Shown here in pieces: positions 1,213 to 13,646 of a DNA stretch of 33,720 nt (the first letter of the stretch is position 1; the number at the start of each line of letters is the position of its first letter). A program made the translations under genes and the position numbers. The notes under the pieces were generated by a model. It was not told the origin of the DNA and made no database searches. It saw only the letters and a list, made by a program, of their open reading frames with translations. This DNA is from a virus, in the IMG/VR virus record IMGVR_UViG_3300046462_000521, positions 1 through 33,720 of that record; one strand, written 5' to 3'.

Positions 1213-1927
1213 GATTAGCAATGCGGAGGCGAGCGCCAACATACTGCGCTTTGCCGAGGAGGGGCGGATTGTGCAAGGGCTTTGGCACGGCAGGCAGGGG
1301 CACGACGGGCGCGAAATCGCGTGCCTCTTGGGGGCGATCCACCCGAGCGTGACTAGCGCGGAGGAGTGTAATGGGAAGCTGATGCCGATGTGGCTGGCCA
1401 AGCTGACGCCGCTACTGTTCGACAGCATTCAGGCGGTTGAGATCGTGGCCGTGGCGCGGCGATATGGCGAGCTGGTGGCGCGCTGGGGCGGCCTCGCCCC
1501 CGAGGCATGGGAGCGGGTCAAAACCGCGTTCCTGATTCGGACGGTTGACGAGGCGATGGAGGCCGCGCGGCCGGTTTCCAAGAGGAAACCGTATTGGCCA
1601 GCGGTCGAGGCCGCCTGTAACAACACTAAATCCGCCCTCGAGAGCGGCGATAAGAAGGCCTTGAAGGCGGCGCGGGCGGCGCGGGCGGTGGAGGCGGCGG
1701 TGTGGGCGGTAGAGGCGGTGGAGGGGGCGGCGGCGGCGCGGGCGGTGTGGACGGCGGAAGAGGCGGCGGGGGCGGCGGAGGCGGAGGGGGCGGAGACGGA
1801 GGCGGTAGCGGTGTGGACGGCGGCGGCGGAGGGGGCGGGGGCGGCGGTGCAGGCGGAGACGGAGGCGGTGTTTTGCCTTCGCCTGTTCACGTTCATCCTA
1901 GACCGCATTGAGGCCGAGTGCCCATGA
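1205..1927 (+). CDS. protein with long Ala/Glu-rich low-complexity C-terminal region, 240 aa
   Basis: I start it at ATG 1205 because GGGAG at 1193-1197 is well spaced there; upstream in-frame starts lack a site. Residues 1-130 look globular (FAEEGRIVQGLWHG ... REIACLLGAIHPSV) and resemble, loosely, phage proteins that precede Ala-rich tails; I cannot name the family. From about residue 155 the protein is almost all Ala, Glu, Val, Arg, Gly and Trp in A-x-x-A patterns, probably an amphipathic helix, then ends in a hydrophobic stretch (FCLRLFTFILDRI). The DNA behind this is an extreme G-rich tract with in-frame repeats (1742-1870). It overlaps the previous gene by 8 bases and the next by ATGA. 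The call as a gene is firm; function unknown. Confidence 0.65.
   Translation: MVEISNAEASANILRFAEEGRIVQGLWHGRQGHDGREIACLLGAIHPSVTSAEECNGKLMPMWLAKLTPLLFDSIQAVEIVAVARRYGELVARWGGLAPEAWERVKTAFLIRTVDEAMEAARPVSKRKPYWPAVEAACNNTKSALESGDKKALKAARAARAVEAAVWAVEAVEGAAAARAVWTAEEAAGAAEAEGAETEAVAVWTAAAEGAGAAVQAETEAVFCLRLFTFILDRIEAECP
1742..1870 (+). repeat. G-rich two-copy tandem repeat (about 66 and 63 bp)
   Basis: GCGGTGTGGACGGCGG occurs at 1742-1757 and 1808-1823, and GGCGGAGACGGAGGCGGT at 1789-1806 and 1852-1869. Together they define two in-frame units, each encoding AVWTA...AETEAV. The wider tract 1660-1870 has almost no T and few A, with many GG and GGG runs. Confidence 0.8.
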
Positions 1928-2145
1928 CTCCCGACGAACAGGAGGCCCTCTCCCGCGCTCTCTCCAACGACATCATCATCACGTTGCAACTCTCCAGCGG
2001 CAACATCGCTGTTTTCAACAGCGCCCGCGCGCTATGCGGCATTGTAGCAGATTGGCGACAAGCGCGGCTGGTGTGGTACGCGCCGCCCAGGAACAGCCGA
2101 ACTGCAGCCGAACATCGTCCGACTTTAGAGGAGCTTGGGCTATGA
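1924..2145 (+). CDS. hypothetical protein ending in the LEELGL tail, 73 aa
   Basis: No family was recognised. ATG 1924 overlaps the preceding stop (ATGA), which favours it over GTG 1918. The N-terminal two thirds (DEQEALSRALSNDIIITLQLSSGNIAVFNSARALCG) suggest a helix followed by a strand pair. The end, AAEHRPTLEELGL, is the clearest example of a short C-terminal motif shared with other early proteins in this window. The last 29 bases before the stop region (2110-2138) are repeated at 2372-2400 after the next gene. The tail-coding sequence also contains GAGGAG, which serves as ribosome binding site for the next gene. Confidence 0.65.
   Translation: MTPDEQEALSRALSNDIIITLQLSSGNIAVFNSARALCGIVADWRQARLVWYAPPRNSRTAAEHRPTLEELGL
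2110..2138 (+). repeat. 29-bp direct repeat, copy 1 (other copy 2372-2400)
   Basis: Positions 2110-2138 are identical to 2372-2400; one mismatch follows, then three more identical bases. Copy 1 encodes the EHRPTLEELG tail of the gene ending at 2145 and carries a GAGGAG ribosome binding site. Confidence 0.9.
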
Positions 2146-2369
2146 CCGCCAAGGTTGTCAGGCTTGAAAATCCAGTTGACATCGTGGCAATGCTGCGCGG
2201 CGCGGCCGATCGGATCGAGGCGGGTGAGTATCCCGATCTGCAATTCATCACCGCTGTTTTTGTCAATCGAGACAGCAGCTTTATCACTTACGGGTGGGGC
2301 CAGATGTCCACTCTGGAAGCGATCGGCTCGCTGGCTCGGGCAATTCGGAGCGATCTGGTAGACGAATGA
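2142..2369 (+). CDS. hypothetical protein lying between direct repeats, 75 aa
   Basis: It starts at ATG 2142 (ATGA overlap) with GAGGAG at 2129-2134 upstream. The sequence (MTAKVVRLENPVDIVAMLRGAADRIEAGEY ... SSFITYGWGQMSTLEAIGSLARAIRSDLVDE) looks like a compact alpha/beta domain. Similar small proteins with a central beta hairpin and a final helix are common hypothetical genes in phages of Gram-negatives, but I cannot name the family. The gene lies exactly between the two copies of the 29-bp repeat, so it looks like an insertion between the preceding gene and the helicase. Its stop is followed at once by repeat copy 2, which supplies the helicase ribosome binding site. Confidence 0.65.
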   Translation: MTAKVVRLENPVDIVAMLRGAADRIEAGEYPDLQFITAVFVNRDSSFITYGWGQMSTLEAIGSLARAIRSDLVDE

Positions 2370-2371
2370 GA

Positions 2372-2400
2372 GAACATCGTCCGACTTTAGAGGAGCTTGG
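2372..2400 (+). repeat. 29-bp direct repeat, copy 2 (other copy 2110-2138)
   Basis: Same 29 bases as 2110-2138. Here the copy is non-coding or vestigial: read from ATG 2366 it would again spell MREHRPTLEELGL, but the frame runs on through the helicase gene. Its GAGGAG (2391-2396) serves as ribosome binding site for the helicase at 2406. Confidence 0.9.
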
Positions 2401-2405
2401 TCTAA

Positions 2406-3854
2406 ATGCGCGAGCCAACCCCCGAACAGGCGGCGATCCTCGCCGCCGCCGTCGGCACCACCGACAACCTTCTCGTCAACGCCCTCGCTGGCACCGGCAA
2501 AACCTCTACCATCGAGATGATCTGCGCCGCGATCCAGGGCATCCCTATCCTCTACCTCGCCTTCAACAAGCGCATCGTAGACGAGGCCGTCAAACGAATG
2601 CCCTCCCACGTCGAGTGTCGCACACAGAACTCCGTCGGCCACCGAGTCTGGGGCCAAGCGACTGGGCGCCGGCTTGTCGTTGCAGCTGACAAGATGCGAA
2701 CCATCGTCCGCGCCCTCATCAGCGAAATGCCGAAGGCTCACCAAGGTGCCTACTGGGGTGATTTCTCCGACATCCTGAAGTGGTGCCAGCGCGCCAAACG
2801 GGACGGCTACGTACCCAAACGATGGGTCGGCCCCTGCCAGCCAGTCATGGACTGGGAGGAGTTCACCGACAGATACGACGACGATATGCCGCATCGTGGC
2901 ATCTTGGACGACGCTCTCATGCGATCCATCAGCGCGGCCTACGAGGGTGGTATCGACTACGATGACCAGATCTACATGCCCGTCATCTTCGGCGGCCCCT
3001 GGCCCAGATTCCCGCTCGTCATCGTAGATGAGGCCCAGGACCTGTCCCCCCTCAATCACGCGATGCTGTATGAGCTGGTATCTAAACGCCTCATCGCCGT
3101 CGGCGATCCGTGGCAGTCCATCTACGCTTTCCGCGGCGCTGTCTGTAACGGCATGTCAGCCCTGCACGAGCGCTTCTCCATGACCGATCTCCCCCTCTCC
3201 GTCACCTTCCGCGTTCCCAAGACAGGAGTCGAACGTGCCCGATCCAGAGTACCGCATTTCGTTGCGGCCTTGGCTAATCCGGTCGGCGAGGTCACGACCC
3301 TCGCCGAGTGGTCCGCCGCCGACGTACCCGCCGAAGCCGCCATCATCTGCAGAAACAACGCCCCCCTCATCTCCTTGGCATTCAAACTTCTGCGCAGCGG
3401 TCGCGCTATTAAGTTGGTGGGAATGGATATTGGTGCTGGCTTGGTCCGCACTTTGCGCAAGCTCGGCCCTCTCGATCTTCACGGCGTGGCGCTGACCACC
3501 GCCATCTACGACTGGACCGAGCGCGAACTTCGCACCGCACGACGTTCAACCGGCGCGATCTACGACCGCCAGGAATGTCTCTACGCTCTCTGCGAGGGCC
3601 GCTCTTCTCTCGGCGATGCCATCGCCAACGCAGAGGATTTGTTCCGCCGCGAAGGTCCAATTCAGCTTCTCTCTGGCCACAAATCCAAGGGTCTCGAGTG
3701 GCCCGTCGTGTTCCACCTCGATCCGTGGCGCATTCCCTCAAAATTCGCACGCGCTGGCGAGGTGCTGGAACAGGAGCTAAACGTGAAATATGTGATCGAG
3801 ACGCGGTTCAAGGAGCGTCTCGTGCTGGTTAACCTGGAGGGGTGGAGACAATGA
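2406..3854 (+). CDS. SF1 (UvrD/Rep-like) DNA helicase, 482 aa
   Basis: Helicase motifs appear in order: Walker A NALAGTGKTS (25-34), AFNKR motif Ia (52-56), Walker B DEAQD (208-212), motif III VGDPWQSIYAFRGA (232-245), motif IV TFR (267-269), motif V GHKSKGLEW (424-432) and motif VI YVIETR (462-467). UvrD normally has YVALTR at the last site, so the arginine finger position is kept. This is the UvrD/Rep/PcrA superfamily in compact form: it lacks the large 1B/2B insertions of the 650-720 residue cellular enzymes. Probable role: 3'-5' unwinding in phage replication or recombination. The ribosome binding site is GAGGAG within the second 29-bp repeat. Its stop overlaps the next start (ATGA). Confidence 0.92.
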   Translation: MREPTPEQAAILAAAVGTTDNLLVNALAGTGKTSTIEMICAAIQGIPILYLAFNKRIVDEAVKRMPSHVECRTQNSVGHRVWGQATGRRLVVAADKMRTIVRALISEMPKAHQGAYWGDFSDILKWCQRAKRDGYVPKRWVGPCQPVMDWEEFTDRYDDDMPHRGILDDALMRSISAAYEGGIDYDDQIYMPVIFGGPWPRFPLVIVDEAQDLSPLNHAMLYELVSKRLIAVGDPWQSIYAFRGAVCNGMSALHERFSMTDLPLSVTFRVPKTGVERARSRVPHFVAALANPVGEVTTLAEWSAADVPAEAAIICRNNAPLISLAFKLLRSGRAIKLVGMDIGAGLVRTLRKLGPLDLHGVALTTAIYDWTERELRTARRSTGAIYDRQECLYALCEGRSSLGDAIANAEDLFRREGPIQLLSGHKSKGLEWPVVFHLDPWRIPSKFARAGEVLEQELNVKYVIETRFKERLVLVNLEGWRQ

Positions 3855-5952: not shown

Positions 5953-6214
5953 GCTGCCCTATCCGTGGGAGATAATCCGGCGGAACTTTCGCCGCGAGGT
6001 AGACATAATCGTGCGCGGAAGCCTCATTGCAGTGTATCCTCCCCGAAAGCACCCGCAGAAGGCCGTCGTAGGCCGGCACTATAGGAGACCACCATGCCCG
6101 ACGAAGTATCCACCATTGCCGAACTTTACGCTCGCGACCCCTTTGAACTCTCAGCTCTCGACATCGACCGCATCATCGAGTACTACGCGGCCCGTCGGAA
6201 AGAGTTCGCGCTGA
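5942..6214 (+). CDS. doubtful hypothetical ORF, 90 aa, C-terminal half overlapped
   Basis: From ATG 5942 the first 50 residues (MPAELPYPWEIIRRNFRRE, then VDIIVRGSLIAVYPPRKHP) look like a real basic protein and fill a gap that would otherwise be empty. From 6094 on, the frame overlaps the next gene and its Ser/Thr/Pro-rich translation looks like a shadow. It may be a genuine gene with a non-conserved tail, or a remnant truncated by the gene at 6094. The ribosome binding site is weak (GAG only). Confidence 0.4.
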   Translation: MPAELPYPWEIIRRNFRREVDIIVRGSLIAVYPPRKHPQKAVVGRHYRRPPCPTKYPPLPNFTLATPLNSQLSTSTASSSTTRPVGKSSR

Positions 6215-6276
6215 CCGGGAAGGGTGGTCCGCGGATCGAGAAGCCGCAAGCGTCACTCGACGATCTTGGCCTCTAA
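6094..6276 (+). CDS. small acidic protein with LDDLGL tail, 60 aa
   Basis: ATG 6094 has AGGAG (6083-6087) upstream. The product contains DPFELSALDIDRIIEYYAARRKEF, a helix-rich pattern I recognise from small phage proteins of unknown function (a D-P-x-x-L-T/S-x-x-D-I-D-x-I-I-E-Y-x-R core). It ends IEKPQASLDDLGL. Unlike the example at 2145, this tail is not shaped by an overlapping ribosome binding site, since AAGGAG lies after the stop. That suggests the tail is selected as protein sequence. Confidence 0.7.
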   Translation: MPDEVSTIAELYARDPFELSALDIDRIIEYYAARRKEFALTGKGGPRIEKPQASLDDLGL

Positions 6277-6299: not shown

Positions 6300-6510
6300 C
6301 CTGCTCACAGAACTAATCGAGTTCGATTACTCCGAGATTCCAGAAGAGCGCCGCCCCCGATCAGGAAATCATTGGCGCTGCAACGTCTGTGGGAAACATG
6401 CTGCTGATAAATATGGCATTATCGGGCCACATTCTTCTATGTGGGACGAAAGTTGCATGATGCACGCAGACGAAGTACCCCTCCTTATAGGAGGAGCCCG
6501 ACGTGGCTGA
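6292..6510 (+). CDS. hypothetical Cys/His protein lying between direct repeats, 72 aa
   Basis: GTG 6292 follows AAGGAG (6277-6282). WRCNVCGKHAADKYGIIGPHSS and the later CMMHADE supply C-x2-C and C-x2-H pairs about 22 residues apart, a plausible single-zinc knuckle. The gene is AT-richer than its neighbours. It sits between two copies of a junction sequence that contains the start codon of the following nuclease, so it looks inserted just ahead of the nuclease. Its own first residues (MAD) mirror those of the nuclease (MAE) because of that repeat. It overlaps the nuclease start by 8 bases. Confidence 0.6.
   Translation: MADLLTELIEFDYSEIPEERRPRSGNHWRCNVCGKHAADKYGIIGPHSSMWDESCMMHADEVPLLIGGARRG
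6497..6510 (+). repeat. direct repeat, copy 2 (other copy 6286-6299)
   Basis: Second copy of CCCGACGTGGCTGA. It holds the stop of the small gene (6508-6510) and the GTG start (6503) of the PD-(D/E)XK nuclease. Confidence 0.85.
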
Positions 6511-7387
6511 ATCCCCTTATCTCCCCGACGGCCGCCAGTGGGCATGGTCCGCATCCCACCTGTCCCTCGCCAAAGACTGCTGGCGCAAATACTTCTACGC
6601 AACGCGGCTGAACCTTCAGCGCCGCGACCTCTCGGTCGATCTGATCTTCGGTAAGCACTACGCGAAGGCGCTGGAAACGTACCACAAGCTGCGCCTGATT
6701 GAAGGGCTCGACCACGATGACGCCCTCCACAACGTCGTTTTCAGGGCCCTATGTGACACCGCCGGCTGGCACCCCGAACACAACTTCAAGACCCGTGAGA
6801 ACCTAATCCGCTCCATCATTTGGTACCTCGAACAGTTCAAGGACGACCCATGCAAAACCGTGGTCCTGGCGGACGGTCGGCCCGCCGTCGAACTCCCCTT
6901 TCGTTTTCAGCTCACCGCGGATTACGTCTTGTGCGGGCACCTCGACCGTATCGTGGAATACGCGGGTGGCTTGTACGTTCAGGATCAAAAGACGACTGGA
7001 GCCACGCTCGGTGGGTATTACTTCAAACGCTACAACCCCGACGTACAAATGTCGCTCTACAGCGTTGCCGCCAAGGTTGTATGGCATACGCCAGTCCAAG
7101 GCGTCATGATAGATGCGGCTCAAATCGCTGTCGGCTTCACAAGGTTCGAGCGTGGCTTCTCCTACCGCACCGATGAGCAGCTCGACGAGTGGACCGCCGA
7201 CACGCTGTACGTGATCGAGGATCAGGAGCGCGCCCGCGACGCGGGATGGCCTATGAATGACGCCGCCTGCCAGAAGTACGGTGGCTGTCAGTTCCTTGAA
7301 GTGTGCTCAAAGTCACCGCAGGTCCGTAAGGACTTCCTTGCGACAGGGTTTGTCGAGAGCGACTACTCTCCGTTGGAGGCACGCTGA
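6503..7387 (+). CDS. RecB/Cas4-type PD-(D/E)XK nuclease with putative 4Fe-4S cluster, 294 aa
   Basis: GTG 6503 follows GGAGGAG (6490-6496). Nuclease residues are in the expected order: Glu130, GHLDR with Asp148, the D-x-K pair Asp161/Lys163 (VQDQKT) and the RecB-type Gln182-x3-Tyr186 (QMSLY). Cys26 (KDCWRKY) and a C-terminal set, Cys256, Cys262 and Cys268 (C-x5-C-x5-C), match the one-plus-three cysteine layout of AddB and Cas4, which holds a 4Fe-4S cluster. The likely role is resecting or trimming DNA ends during phage recombination, working with the Sak4-like ATPase and SSB-like protein downstream. It ends SPLEAR, and the coding sequence for EAR plus stop is repeated 172 bases on. Confidence 0.88.
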   Translation: MAESPYLPDGRQWAWSASHLSLAKDCWRKYFYATRLNLQRRDLSVDLIFGKHYAKALETYHKLRLIEGLDHDDALHNVVFRALCDTAGWHPEHNFKTRENLIRSIIWYLEQFKDDPCKTVVLADGRPAVELPFRFQLTADYVLCGHLDRIVEYAGGLYVQDQKTTGATLGGYYFKRYNPDVQMSLYSVAAKVVWHTPVQGVMIDAAQIAVGFTRFERGFSYRTDEQLDEWTADTLYVIEDQERARDAGWPMNDAACQKYGGCQFLEVCSKSPQVRKDFLATGFVESDYSPLEAR

Positions 7388-7391
7388 CATG
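7376..7391 (+). repeat. 16-bp direct repeat, copy 1 (other copy 7548-7563)
   Basis: GAGGCACGCTGACATG spans the nuclease C-terminal EAR codons, its stop and the next ATG. It is identical to 7548-7563. Confidence 0.9.
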
Positions 7392-7559
7392 GACGAAGAA
7401 GCAGCTATCGTGATAGTTGGGTGGATGGTATGTATTCCATTCGCTGATCAAAATTATGCTGTAAAAGCGGCAGACGAAACAGGATTTATCTACCACCTTA
7501 GACCAATGTACAAGGACGGCTCTTTAGGAGAACCGAAATTTTCCAATGAGGCACGCTGA
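7389..7559 (+). CDS. hypothetical protein lying between direct repeats, 56 aa
   Basis: ATG 7389 uses GGAGG at 7375-7379. The product (MDEEAAIVIVGWMVCIPFA, then KAADETGFIYHLRPMYKDG and KFSNEAR) has a hydrophobic first strand or helix and a central Y-H-L-R segment; no family was recognised. It is AT-rich compared with the nuclease and ATPase on either side. Both ends lie in copies of a 16-bp sequence that includes stop and start codons, so the gene looks precisely inserted between nuclease and ATPase. Its last residues, EAR, repeat those of the nuclease for the same reason. Confidence 0.6.
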   Translation: MDEEAAIVIVGWMVCIPFADQNYAVKAADETGFIYHLRPMYKDGSLGEPKFSNEAR

Positions 7560-7563
7560 CATG
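7548..7563 (+). repeat. 16-bp direct repeat, copy 2 (other copy 7376-7391)
   Basis: Second copy of GAGGCACGCTGACATG. It provides GAGG as ribosome binding site and the ATG of the Sak4-like ATPase. Confidence 0.9.
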
Positions 7564-8355
7564 CCTAGCGCCGCCGACCACCAATCCGCCCACCTTCACA
7601 AGCTCCTTTACATCGGAGACTCAGGTACCGGCAAAACCACATCCCTCTTCTCGCTCCTCCAGGCTGGTTACCACCTTCGCATCTACGACTTTGACAACCT
7701 CCTTGACCCTTTGATCGCCCTGACACGTGGCCGCGCTCCCGAACTCCTGTCCCAAATCGAGTTCATGTCCTTCCGCGACCGCATGAAAGCGACTCCTTTG
7801 GGCCCCATAATCGACGGCCAGCCCAAAGCCTTCATCGAGTCCCTCCAAGCCTTCGACAAATGGGAGGACGGCTCCGACCCCTCCAAATGGGGCCCTCGCC
7901 ACATCGCGGTCGTGGACAGTCACACGACCCAGGCACGCGCAGCTTATTTCTGGGCGCGCGGGATGCAAGGGGCTGCGGGCCTACCCGAGGGCATCTCGTC
8001 GAAGGGCATCGAGCCCCGCGCCATCTTCTTCACTGCCCAACAGGCCGTGATGAACACCATCGCCCTCCTAACAGGCGAGCAATTCAACACCAACGTCATC
8101 GTCATAGCGCACGTCAAATATCTCGAACACAGCGGTAACACCAAGGGTTTCCCACTCTCGGTCGGTACCGCCATCTCGCCCGAAATCCCAACCTATTTCC
8201 CTTCGGTCGCCTTGGCGACGAAGTCGGCCTCCGGCAACCGTGTAATCCGCACGAGGTCTACCTTGATGATAGACCTCAAAGACCCCAAAACCTTCGACCC
8301 GACCTACGCAGATGAGCTGCCGATGGACACGGGCCTTGCGGAAATCTTCAAATGA
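7561..8355 (+). CDS. Sak4-like RecA-fold ATPase (phage recombinase), 264 aa
   Basis: I start it at ATG 7561 with GAGG at 7548-7551; the in-frame ATG at 7546 has no site. Walker A is GDSGTGKTT (19-27), Walker B IAVVDSH (about 115-121), and NVIVIAHVKYLEHSG is a typical sensor strand of the phage AAA_24/Sak4 group, minimal RecA-core proteins that promote single-strand annealing. A nuclease upstream and an SSB-like protein downstream fit the usual Sak4 gene neighbourhood. The length matches the family. Alternative reading: a generic phage P-loop ATP-binding protein without recombinase activity. A 57-residue ORF is coupled to it by ATGA. Confidence 0.82.
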   Translation: MPSAADHQSAHLHKLLYIGDSGTGKTTSLFSLLQAGYHLRIYDFDNLLDPLIALTRGRAPELLSQIEFMSFRDRMKATPLGPIIDGQPKAFIESLQAFDKWEDGSDPSKWGPRHIAVVDSHTTQARAAYFWARGMQGAAGLPEGISSKGIEPRAIFFTAQQAVMNTIALLTGEQFNTNVIVIAHVKYLEHSGNTKGFPLSVGTAISPEIPTYFPSVALATKSASGNRVIRTRSTLMIDLKDPKTFDPTYADELPMDTGLAEIFK

Positions 8356-10334: not shown

Positions 10335-10428
10335 CGGGCCTGATTTTGGATTAATGAAAGAGCTGATGCCCCGCGAGGCTGTACAGTTGGCGCACCGTAT
10401 CCTCCGCGAAGCTGTCATTCTCCTGTGA
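10264..10428 (+). CDS. hypothetical small protein, 54 aa
   Basis: The best start is ATG 10264, which overlaps the methyltransferase C-terminus by 71 bases; the frame is open further upstream and a GTG at 10291 is an alternative. The convincing part is GSDYETVRLTLNGPDFGLMKELMPREAVQLAHRILREAVILL: two strands followed by an amphipathic helix, after the methyltransferase stop. No family was recognised. Its stop overlaps the next start (GTGA), which supports translation. No clear ribosome binding site was seen. Confidence 0.5.
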   Translation: MPTRPGAVSVGVGSDYETVRLTLNGPDFGLMKELMPREAVQLAHRILREAVILL

Positions 10429-11480
10429 CCCGCATCGTCATCATCGGGGAAGCCTGGGGCCGTGACGAAGCTCCTCTGCGTCGCCCCTTCATCGGCGCAT
10501 CAGGGCGCCTCCTCAACCAGCTTCTCGAAGAGGCCGGCCTCCTCCCCTTGGGCAGCGCCCGCCGCATTTCGCCCGCTTACAGTAACTTCCTCCATCACGT
10601 CAGGGATGAAATCTATGACGCCGCAGGAATCCACCTTACGAACGTACTTAATCTCCACCCACCCGGTAACAAGATCGTCGATCTATGTGGTCCTCGATGG
10701 GGAAATTTTCCGCCTATCAGACCAGGAAAGTACCTTCGTGAAGAGTTCACTTCAGAGATCGATCGGCTGCAATCCGAACTCGTCGATCACAAGCCTAATC
10801 TTATTCTCGGACTTGGAGCAACTAGCGTATGGTTTGGGCTCGGCACTTCGCAGATTGGGCGCTTTCGGGGAGCGATTGCTCCCTCGAGTTATGGGAAATT
10901 TCTTCCAACATATCATCCAGCGTTCTTGCTTCGTGGAGCCTGGGACCTCCGACCTGTCGTAATCCAAGACCTTTTCAAAGCCGCCTACGAGGCCGATTTC
11001 CCCGAGGTCCGGCGTCCCGCCCGTACCATCTACGTCCCCGAGACCCTTGACGAGATAGAGTTCTGTCTGCGCGAGTGCGCGCTTGCGTCGCGCATCTCGA
11101 TTGACGTGGAGACGGTCGCCGACCAAATAACCTCCATCTCCTTCGCATGGTCGTCCACAGTATGCTGCGTCATTCCTATCTTCAAGGGCGGTTACTCGTA
11201 TTGGCCTCATGATGAGCCCGCCGTCTGGCGTTTCATCGCGCGCTTTTGCGCACTCCCTGCGCCGAAGGTGGGCCAGAACTTCATCTACGACATGCGGTTT
11301 TTGTGGGAGCGGTACGGTATCACAGTCCGCAACGTCGCCGACGACACAATGCTGCTGCACCACGCGCTGCAGCCCGAACTCCAGAAAGGTCTAGCTTTCT
11401 TGGGCAGTATCTACACCAACGAACCTTCCTGGAAACCACGCTACTCCAAGTCAGGGACGGTGAAACATGAAGATGCCTGA
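10425..11480 (+). CDS. UDG-like domain fused to a partial 3'-5' exonuclease domain of family A DNA polymerase, 351 aa
   Basis: GTG 10425 overlaps the previous stop. Residues 1-190 are of the uracil-DNA glycosylase superfamily, nearest family 4/5: IGEAWG (7-12, usually EAPG), PFIGASGRLLNQLL (21-34), LTNVLNLHPPGNK (71-83) and YHPAFLLR (163-170). The Fe-S cysteines of true family 4 enzymes are not evident. Residues 200-351 are the DnaQ-like proofreading domain: exo I SIDVET (225-230, D227 and E229) and exo II KVGQNFIYDMRFL (281-293, N285 and D289). The protein stops after KHEDA, before exo III, which is found at the start of the polymerase ORF 12102. The two proteins presumably assemble, or each has changed role. 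Confidence 0.85.
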   Translation: MTRIVIIGEAWGRDEAPLRRPFIGASGRLLNQLLEEAGLLPLGSARRISPAYSNFLHHVRDEIYDAAGIHLTNVLNLHPPGNKIVDLCGPRWGNFPPIRPGKYLREEFTSEIDRLQSELVDHKPNLILGLGATSVWFGLGTSQIGRFRGAIAPSSYGKFLPTYHPAFLLRGAWDLRPVVIQDLFKAAYEADFPEVRRPARTIYVPETLDEIEFCLRECALASRISIDVETVADQITSISFAWSSTVCCVIPIFKGGYSYWPHDEPAVWRFIARFCALPAPKVGQNFIYDMRFLWERYGITVRNVADDTMLLHHALQPELQKGLAFLGSIYTNEPSWKPRYSKSGTVKHEDA

Positions 11481-11938: not shown

Positions 11939-12105
11939 AAAGCTATGTTGGACTTGATGTTACAGAAGAAGAACAGCTTAAAAATATGTTAGCGATGTTA
12001 ACGCTGGACGCCCTTAAAAAACGAAATCTAATAACCTTCCGTGTTGTTGGTAAGGGTAAGGATAAATGGCGCCGTGCAGTAATTCGACTCGTAGTCGCCC
12101 CATGA
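11923..12105 (+). CDS. hypothetical AT-rich small gene between polymerase halves, 60 aa
   Basis: It starts at GTG 11923 inside the preceding gene (16-base overlap, AAGG-type site at 11912). The protein is helical then basic (MHEQIESYVGLDVTEEEQLK, a Leu/Met-rich helix, then RVVGKGKDKWRRAVIRLVVAP) and could bind nucleic acid. The DNA is clearly AT-richer than both flanking genes, a sign of separate origin. No family was recognised. Its stop overlaps the polymerase start (ATGA), so polymerase translation is coupled to it. Confidence 0.6.
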   Translation: MHEQIESYVGLDVTEEEQLKNMLAMLTLDALKKRNLITFRVVGKGKDKWRRAVIRLVVAP

Positions 12106-13646
12106 AGATCATCCAGACCTCCGACCTTACCCCTTCTCTCTACACCACCCTCATGCAAGAGTTCGATGTCCGCAACGGCATCGACACGATGGTCACCTAC
12201 GAAGTTCTCGAGGCCTTGCTCCCGCAGCTAACCCCCGTCACGGCCGCGACCTACGCCTTCTCCCGTTCTTTGCAGGGCCCTATCCTCGAAATGAATATGC
12301 GCGGCCTCCGTGTTGACGAGGAGCGCCGCCAACAAGTCCTCCAAGAGTATCGCCTCGGCGTCATCCGTCTCACCGACAACCTTAACCGCATCATCCGTGA
12401 GGGCATTGGCTGGCAGTTCGAGATAACCAAGAACCGCAAATATGGCTGGCCCTCTGACGACCAGCTCAAGACCCTGTTCTTCGACGTGCTCGGTATCCCC
12501 GAAATCCGTAAGCGCAACACGCAGGGCGAGATGACCCGTACGGTCGATCATGATGCCCTCGAAAAACTGGAAGGGTACTTCTATGCAGAGACTATCGTTC
12601 GACATATCATCTCTCTCCGAGAACTCGGAAAGAAGATTTCTTTCCTTTCAACTTCAATCGACTCCGATGGACGACTACGCACTAGCTTTAATATTGCAGG
12701 TACTACAACAGGACGACTTGCTTCTTCGTTTTCGGATTTCGGGACAGGAACCAATTTACAGAACGTCGAAAATCTCCTCCGATCCATCTTCGTCGCCGAC
12801 CCAGGATACAAATTCTGCAACATCGACCTCGAACAGTCCGACGCCCGCGCCGTCGGTGCCATCCATTGGAACTTGTTCCGCGATAGCCGCTATCTTGACG
12901 CTTGTGAATCAGGTGATCTTCACACTTCCACTGCCCGATCTGGATTTCCTGCGCTTAACTGGAGCGGCGATCGTAGTGCTGACCGGCAGCTTGCTGATAC
13001 TAAGTTTTACCGTGAATTTAGCTATCGTGATGCTAGCAAGCGATTGGGTCATGGAACGAATTACCAGGGGCAACCCGACAAAATGGCCCGTGCCACCCAC
13101 ATCCCCCTCGCCAACATAGTTGCCTTTCAGCGTGCCTACCTCGCCCAGTTTCCCGCCTTCCCGTTGTGGTGGGAATGGGTAGAGCACCAAGTCCGCGATG
13201 TCCGTCGCATCGTGTCGCTGACCGGCCGCCAGCGCTACTTCTTCGGGCACCCGCGCGACCCTGAAACGATCCGCAAAGCCGTCGCGTACGAGCCTCAATG
13301 CGTCACCGCCGACGTAATCGACCGCGGCCTCCTAGACGTGTGGCGCGGCAACTTCTGCCAGCTCCTCCTTCAAGTTCACGACTCCATTCTGTTCCAGTTT
13401 CCTGCCGACCGCGAGGACGAGATTGTGCCGAAGGCGTTGGCGCTCGTGGAGCAGACGTTCCACTTAAAAGACGGCCGCGACTTCGTGATACCCGCAGAGG
13501 CCAAAGTTGGATGGAATTGGTCAGACTTTCGGGCTGACCAACCAGACCCCGACGCACTAAGGAAATTCAATGACACAGACAGACCGCGGCTCCGCACCAG
13601 AAAACCACAAAGTGTGCTTGACAGACTCGGAGCGTGCATTAGCTAA
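12102..13646 (+). CDS. family A DNA polymerase, polymerase domain with exo III remnant, 514 aa
   Basis: I start it at ATG 12102 (ATGA coupled); an in-frame ATG at 12066 preceded by AAGGATAA is possible. Residues 18-42 (EFDVRNGIDTMVTYEVLEALLPQL) correspond to exo III and the end of the proofreading domain; Asp28 is kept but the usual Tyr four residues before it is Arg24. Polymerase motifs follow: TTTGRLASS (201-209), NLQN (218-221), motif A DLEQSDARA (242-250), motif B R309-DAS-K313-RLG-H317-GTN-Y321, and motif C VHDS (425-428). His317 occupies the O-helix site that is Phe762 in E. coli Pol I and Tyr526 in T7, and Ser replaces the Glu of HDE. It ends KPQSVLDRLGACIS and overlaps the next gene by 77 bases. 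Confidence 0.92.
   Translation: MKIIQTSDLTPSLYTTLMQEFDVRNGIDTMVTYEVLEALLPQLTPVTAATYAFSRSLQGPILEMNMRGLRVDEERRQQVLQEYRLGVIRLTDNLNRIIREGIGWQFEITKNRKYGWPSDDQLKTLFFDVLGIPEIRKRNTQGEMTRTVDHDALEKLEGYFYAETIVRHIISLRELGKKISFLSTSIDSDGRLRTSFNIAGTTTGRLASSFSDFGTGTNLQNVENLLRSIFVADPGYKFCNIDLEQSDARAVGAIHWNLFRDSRYLDACESGDLHTSTARSGFPALNWSGDRSADRQLADTKFYREFSYRDASKRLGHGTNYQGQPDKMARATHIPLANIVAFQRAYLAQFPAFPLWWEWVEHQVRDVRRIVSLTGRQRYFFGHPRDPETIRKAVAYEPQCVTADVIDRGLLDVWRGNFCQLLLQVHDSILFQFPADREDEIVPKALALVEQTFHLKDGRDFVIPAEAKVGWNWSDFRADQPDPDALRKFNDTDRPRLRTRKPQSVLDRLGACIS

Follow-up and report, generated by a model that had tools for sequence, protein, structure and literature searches.

A 75-residue gene between two copies of a gene junction in an IMG/VR phage record and its probable gain as a single-gene cassette

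Genes and direct repeats at the B locus

The stretch of DNA analysed here, referred to as the window, is the IMG/VR virus record IMGVR_UViG_3300046462_000521 over its full 33,720 bp. Two small genes, designated A and B, precede a UvrD/PcrA-like helicase gene on the same strand, and B is enclosed by two direct repeats, R1 and R2 (Table 1). An earlier note, made from the sequence, had described an identity of 29 bases between positions 2110-2138 and 2372-2400, which proved exact and which extends to 33 bp with one mismatch. The chance expectation for exact 29-bp repeat pairs in the window is 2.6e-9, as calculated from base composition, and the record holds these two copies of the repeat and no others. 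The first copy had been read as a coding tail plus ribosome binding site, and indeed R1 provides the last 11 codons of A (EHRPTLEELGL), with GAGGAG inside them sitting 8 nt before the ATG of B, while A and B overlap as ATGA (4 nt). The second copy lies, as had been proposed, between the small gene and the helicase, beginning 2 nt past the B stop and having its GAGGAG 10 nt before the helicase ATG at 2406. With a gap of only 2 nt on one side of B and an overlap of 4 nt on the other, there is zero intergenic space outside R2 for the promoter and terminator of its own that a moron would bring.

Table 1. Features of the B locus and of a second junction duplication in the window
Feature	Position	Strand	Remarks
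Gene A, 73 aa, C-terminal tail EHRPTLEELGL from R1	1924..2145	+	Homologues in other phage contigs
R1, end of gene A with Shine-Dalgarno GAGGAG (2128-2133), up to the ATGA overlap with B	2110..2142	+	
Gene B, 75 aa, putative inserted gene	2142..2369	+	Alone in the unrelated phage contig G006, ~95% DNA identity
R2, putative duplicated A tail and ribosome binding site GAGGAG (2390-2395), running into the helicase	2372..2404	+	
Point where gene C is missing from the window	2405..2405	+	C is 75 aa in G001/G002, L003:3771-3998
UvrD/PcrA-like helicase	2406..3854	+	phrog_1967, UvrD-helicase domain
PD-(D/E)XK exonuclease, upstream gene of the second case, ends EAR*	6503..7387	+	
Second case, repeat copy 1, GAGGCACGCTGACATG: exonuclease end and mini-gene start codon	7376..7391	+	
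Second mini-gene, 56 aa, between duplicated junctions	7389..7559	+	
Second case, repeat copy 2, closing with the next gene's start codon	7548..7563	+	
Sak4-like annealing protein or ATPase, candidate recombinase	7561..8355	+	phrog_124

No Pfam or PHROG family was found for gene A. For gene B, the Pfam and NCBIfam searches were empty, the sole PHROG match was weak and to a family of unknown function, and no similarity to nucleases or transposases was found; B thus has none of the HNH, GIY-YIG or similar nucleases that mark an intergenic homing endonuclease. Inverted ends were not seen at B in the repeat analysis of the window, which leaves B with neither the transposase gene nor the terminal inverted repeats of a transposon that duplicates its target site. 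Among cultured phages, none matched the region by DNA and none encoded A, the lone match to B being a weak one in Pam1 (E 0.05), and the prokaryote genomes searched for A and B gave no matches. A shorter pattern of the repeat core had matches mostly in unrelated phages.

Directly upstream, inside the ORF at 1205-1927, the window contains a GC-rich near-periodic repeat of ~9 bp units (1660-1880) that encodes an Ala/Glu/Val-rich stretch. The matching place in a close relative (G001, below) has GC-rich repeats too, and its end is not alignable.

Relatives with and without gene B

The same two copies of the repeat are present in two other IMG/VR contigs, 3300046836_000506 (G001) and 3300046517_001318 (G002), so the repeat pair is not an assembly accident of the window record. 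The 29 bp occur in three records only, namely the window and these two among 2.9 million viral contigs, and twice in each. Compared with the window, the G001 and G002 proteins are 97% (A), 95% (B) and 95% (helicase) identical. In both contigs R2 leads into another 75-aa gene, C, seen in G001 and G002 only in the search for C, and the helicase comes after it. The link from R2 to C is an intact TATGA stop/start overlap, of the same kind as the link from A to B, and R2 itself is a closed 13-codon frame (ATG-SEHRPTLEELGL-TGA) whose start overlaps B and whose end overlaps C. In the window, the R2 identity is followed by GGTCTAAATGCGCG; the TGA is gone and C is missing. The earlier expectation that removal of B and one repeat would restore a clean junction is accordingly borne out in G001 and G002 and fails in the window itself, because there the A frame would read GGT CTA AAT GCG... 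and run stop-free to 2689.

In G001 and G002, C separates copy 2 from the helicase, and for this reason the junction that was duplicated was most likely A|C rather than A|helicase. The simplest order of events would be an arrangement A-C-helicase, insertion of B together with a copy of the A tail, and loss of C in the window lineage. The direction of the change in C is one that we infer, and gain of C in the G001/G002 lineage is a possible alternative. All contigs with B next to A carry both repeats; a close relative with A joined directly to C and without B was not found, and the exact empty site is therefore likewise one that we infer.

Across the four copies in the window (next bases at 2139 and 2401) and the equivalents in L003, the 29 bp are invariant and the base that follows them is G, T, C and A. 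The lineages holding these copies are 4-7% apart (A 4%, B 5%, helicase 7%), and constraint or gene conversion could be the cause of the invariance.

Gene A was also found without B, in L033, L005, L007, L048, L050, L051 and L053; with helicases at roughly 50-60% protein identity, these contigs do not offer an exact empty site. A single A tail was present in the six junctions that were inspected (L033, L005, L007, L050, L051 and L053), which shows that relatives lacking B normally have one tail. The earlier note had predicted for such genomes a single repeat copy that joins the upstream gene directly to the helicase. The single copy is what all six have; the direct join is found in L053 (G009) only, where A meets the helicase in a GTGA overlap, and the other five have a different small gene after the A tail.

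Gene B recurs at ~95% DNA identity in a further contig, 3300046477_000356 (G006), where it has 4 differences over 228 bp from the G001 copy and 11 from that of the window. The similarity of the window to G006 at B is limited to 2138-2373 (94.9%, blastn). In G006 no relative of the helicase and no A were found, the repeat is absent beside B on both sides, and the flanks are unrelated to the window; the neighbours are a small lipoprotein-like gene on one side and on the other, beyond one or two small genes, a terminase-like gene, a label given by eye. Since B occurs there without either repeat, the repeat is to be ascribed to the recipient junction and not to B, which moves as one gene. At the left edge of B, the contexts of G006, window R1 and G001 R2 have CTATGA in common. 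At the right edge, G006 reads GAATGAGCGA|GATG and G001 reads GAATGAGCGA|ACATCG, with A's own tail reading CAGCCGA|ACATCG.

Other duplicated junctions and a recurrent C-terminal motif

A second case is present in the window, where a 56-aa gene lies between 16-bp repeats formed by the end of the exonuclease gene and a start codon (Table 1). The slot of this gene is occupied by different small genes in G001 and L072 and is empty in L063, and no relative of the 56-aa gene was found in viral contigs. Similar arrangements include a 66-aa gene between 32-bp repeats in G003, a 109-aa gene between copies of another DLGL-type tail in G007, a 49-aa gene with the same junction-repeat architecture in G010 and a 109-aa gene between 24-bp repeats in G006. 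In L008-L010, an HNH gene (L008:3516-3959) lies between 11-bp junction copies directly upstream of the helicase; the 11-bp sequence is single in L011 and L012, which represent the empty site of this insertion. When inserts were compared with their neighbours in 7 gene sets, two of which are the B locus, no clear tandem paralogy was found apart from partial similarity in G006 and, in the Ala-rich proteins of G003, a weak signal (z 3.1).

The sequences around the starts of neighbouring genes had an exact stretch of at least 16 bp in common 8 times vs 0.10 expected, and those of next-but-one genes 1 time vs 0.09 expected. The test covered 1,219 neighbouring same-strand pairs in 28 non-redundant contigs, with the expectation taken from distant pairs of the same contigs and gene starts called by a simple in-house script; the contigs had been gathered via the helicase, A, B and the repeat core, and the presence of repeats was not a criterion. 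Both window cases are among the 8 pairs, and an earlier run on a larger, overlapping contig set gave the same picture. The enrichment between neighbours suggests a common and searchable pattern; as it is confined to neighbours, it speaks against a dispersed consensus for ribosome binding sites such as the start-associated sequences (SAS) of mycobacteriophages.

Two further arrangements were observed in these contigs. L033 has an HNH endonuclease gene (L033:3432-3905) directly upstream of the helicase, whose 5' end is duplicated. In L094, a similar junction sequence (around TGACTGGGAAGGATGGATGATGAGC) stands before three consecutive gene starts (~7005, 7451 and 7750), the last of them exonuclease-like.

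The repeat also encodes a conserved C-terminal motif, [LIVMF]x[DE][LM]G[LIVM]. In 34 ORFs the motif ends within two residues of the C-terminus (32 contig sets), compared with a mean of 1.6 for permuted motifs, the highest permuted count of 33 coming probably from an order nearly identical to the motif itself; a handful of the 34 are biased, their contigs having been fetched by the repeat core, and the A homologues had been collected by similarity. Apparently unrelated proteins with the motif remain, such as the 60-aa protein at 6094-6276 of the window (SLDDLGL), which has look-alikes in G003, G004, G005 and G012, and in G016 the motif occurs on four different proteins. Pro/Lys-rich stretches are often found upstream of it, as in docking tails, and the shared C-terminus looks like a docking tail for a partner. 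Small proteins of the window (1924-2145 and 6094-6276) and of G003, G004, G005, G007, G008, G009, G016 and others follow the consensus (S/T/D)LxDLGL(L). The DLGL tail was considered as a candidate sliding-clamp binding motif, of the kind at the C-terminus of E. coli Pol IV, but the glutamine of that motif is missing from the tails.

Proposed origin of the duplicated junction

The earlier proposal that an accessory gene was inserted with duplication of the junction is supported by B without repeats in G006 and by single tails where B is absent, and needs the correction that the junction was most likely A|C. Here it is proposed that B is probably a horizontally acquired single-gene cassette, that the A|C junction was copied as B was joined to it through short matches, and that C was later lost. 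The recipient would have been an early operon of closely packed genes, where the 3' end of A overlaps the following gene's start and carries the ribosome binding site for it. DNA of a B-carrying phage may have been joined at A|C via a few shared bases, CTATGA at the start of B and, on the right, CGA after the B stop, where the donor would read ATGAGCGA. If the right join was made ~30 bp back, by re-entry at the CGA inside the A tail, then tail, ribosome binding site and start would be copied again before C, giving a duplication of 30-33 bp. Subsequent loss of C in the window lineage would have placed R2 directly before the helicase.

The gain of B with a copied junction is well supported. The copying could have occurred by template switching, or by annealing through a recombinase of the phage itself, at matches of 3-6 bp. 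Among the genes of the phage are those for an exonuclease and a Sak4-like protein. Divergence is tolerated by Rad52-like phage recombinases, although the same study found recombination without homology to be much rarer (PMC3945230). At 6 and 3 bp the microhomologies are short, and the stop/start overlap itself partly dictates CTATGA. That R1 and R2 are identical over 29 bp in each of the two lineages is as compatible with recent homogenisation or with constraint as with duplication. The upstream C-terminus and the downstream ribosome binding site may be retained together only where an insertion repeats the junction, and this would account for the survival of insertions of this type. More tentatively, junction duplication might serve phages with overlapping genes as a general way to acquire single small genes, since a downstream ribosome binding site inside an upstream coding tail would make only junction-copying insertions viable. 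If so, direct repeats over a stop, ribosome binding site and start would mark recent single-gene gains and help to find and order them.

An unlikely alternative is that R is a pre-existing linker, of the short conserved boundary or start-associated type, which several junctions of this phage population share, and that B was exchanged between two phages through ordinary homologous recombination at such linkers, with no duplication. Linker models have been published for phage mosaicism, and the 29 bp that are the same in four copies of two diverged lineages, with a different next base in each, would fit one. Short conserved boundary sequences and relaxed phage recombination have both been invoked for module exchange at gene borders, with phage recombinases as candidate agents (PMC3029335, PMC3945230), and the present reading shares with these models the exchange at gene borders and the candidate agents. 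However, boundary-sequence models require a linker common to both partners, whereas the B copy in G006 has none. The 29-bp sequence is also confined to three records, just twice in each, and sharing of start sequences is found between neighbours, not genome-wide. The SAS of Cluster K mycobacteriophages are repeats with a Shine-Dalgarno core just before gene starts, located in the non-structural half of the genome (PMC3203893), and R resembles them in core and position; however, they are 13 bp long with 11-19 copies genome-wide, whereas the window has two adjacent 33-bp copies that correspond to the coding tail of one gene, and no further copies before other starts in the record.

Transposition or homing with a long target-site duplication is very improbable. 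It would account for direct repeats that flank a unit, and the HNH genes at the 5' end of the helicase in L008-L010 and L033 also leave duplications; yet B, at 75 aa, has no nuclease or transposase similarity, inverted ends are missing, and the length of the duplication varies by case (11, 16, 24, 32 and 33 bp). There is even less to favour R2 being a gene itself, a free copy of the docking tail that various small proteins of this phage group have in common, encoded by the 13-codon ORF (MSEHRPTLEELGL) of G001 and G002. This ORF starts and stops in ATGA overlaps, and its product would be the C-terminal motif whose 34 matches far exceed the permuted mean, but R2 of the window no longer stops after the tail, a separate ORF was not demonstrated for the duplicated tail of G007, and the motif is absent from most other junction duplications. 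Tandem duplication of a repeat-plus-gene unit, with the two genes diverged beyond recognition, would explain R upstream of both B and C in G001 and G002, but is largely refuted by the lack of similarity between B and C, by the general lack of clear paralogy between other inserts and their neighbours, save the partial one in G006, and by the presence of B elsewhere without R.

Two published mycobacteriophage insertions, the nearest precedents, are events of the same kind as that of B. In Island3, gene 68 is an 85-residue gene between two genes, absent from the relative Brujita, and its end is a copy of ~50 bp (18 codons) at the 3' end of the preceding gene (PMC3029335). As in the window, a small extra gene stands between two genes and the upstream 3' end is repeated; in Island3, however, the copy forms an in-frame tail on the inserted gene, whereas R2 follows the B stop. 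Gain and loss were left open for Island3, whereas here the repeat-free B in another phage supports gain. In LRRHood, genes 43-46 constitute an insertion relative to Cali between 29-bp direct repeats, of which relatives have one copy, one repeat lying within the 3' end of the gene before the insertion and the other ahead of the gene after it (PMC3029335). The placement of the repeats is that of R1 and R2, although the LRRHood insertion comprises four genes and 1.35 kb, with the phage exchange partner unknown, and that of the window a single 75-aa gene. The B locus has the features of this kind of insertion, namely direct repeats of tens of bp immediately flanking the insert, a repeat that is the 3' end of the upstream gene, and a single copy in relatives lacking the extra gene, these relatives having helicases ~50-60% identical.

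Relative to these precedents, the evidence for direction is better here, the genome holds a second case, and the count across contigs suggests that such duplications are common. The gain of single genes in tightly overlapping operons, with the neighbours left intact, is an open part of the debate on mosaicism, in which homologous linkers are set against random joining; at the B locus, the insert can be delimited to the base on either side, and the inserted gene is found elsewhere without repeats.

Elsewhere in the window, a single ORF (10425-11480) combines a uracil-DNA glycosylase domain with a PolA-type 3'-5' exonuclease domain, and a family A polymerase is encoded in a separate ORF (12066-13646).
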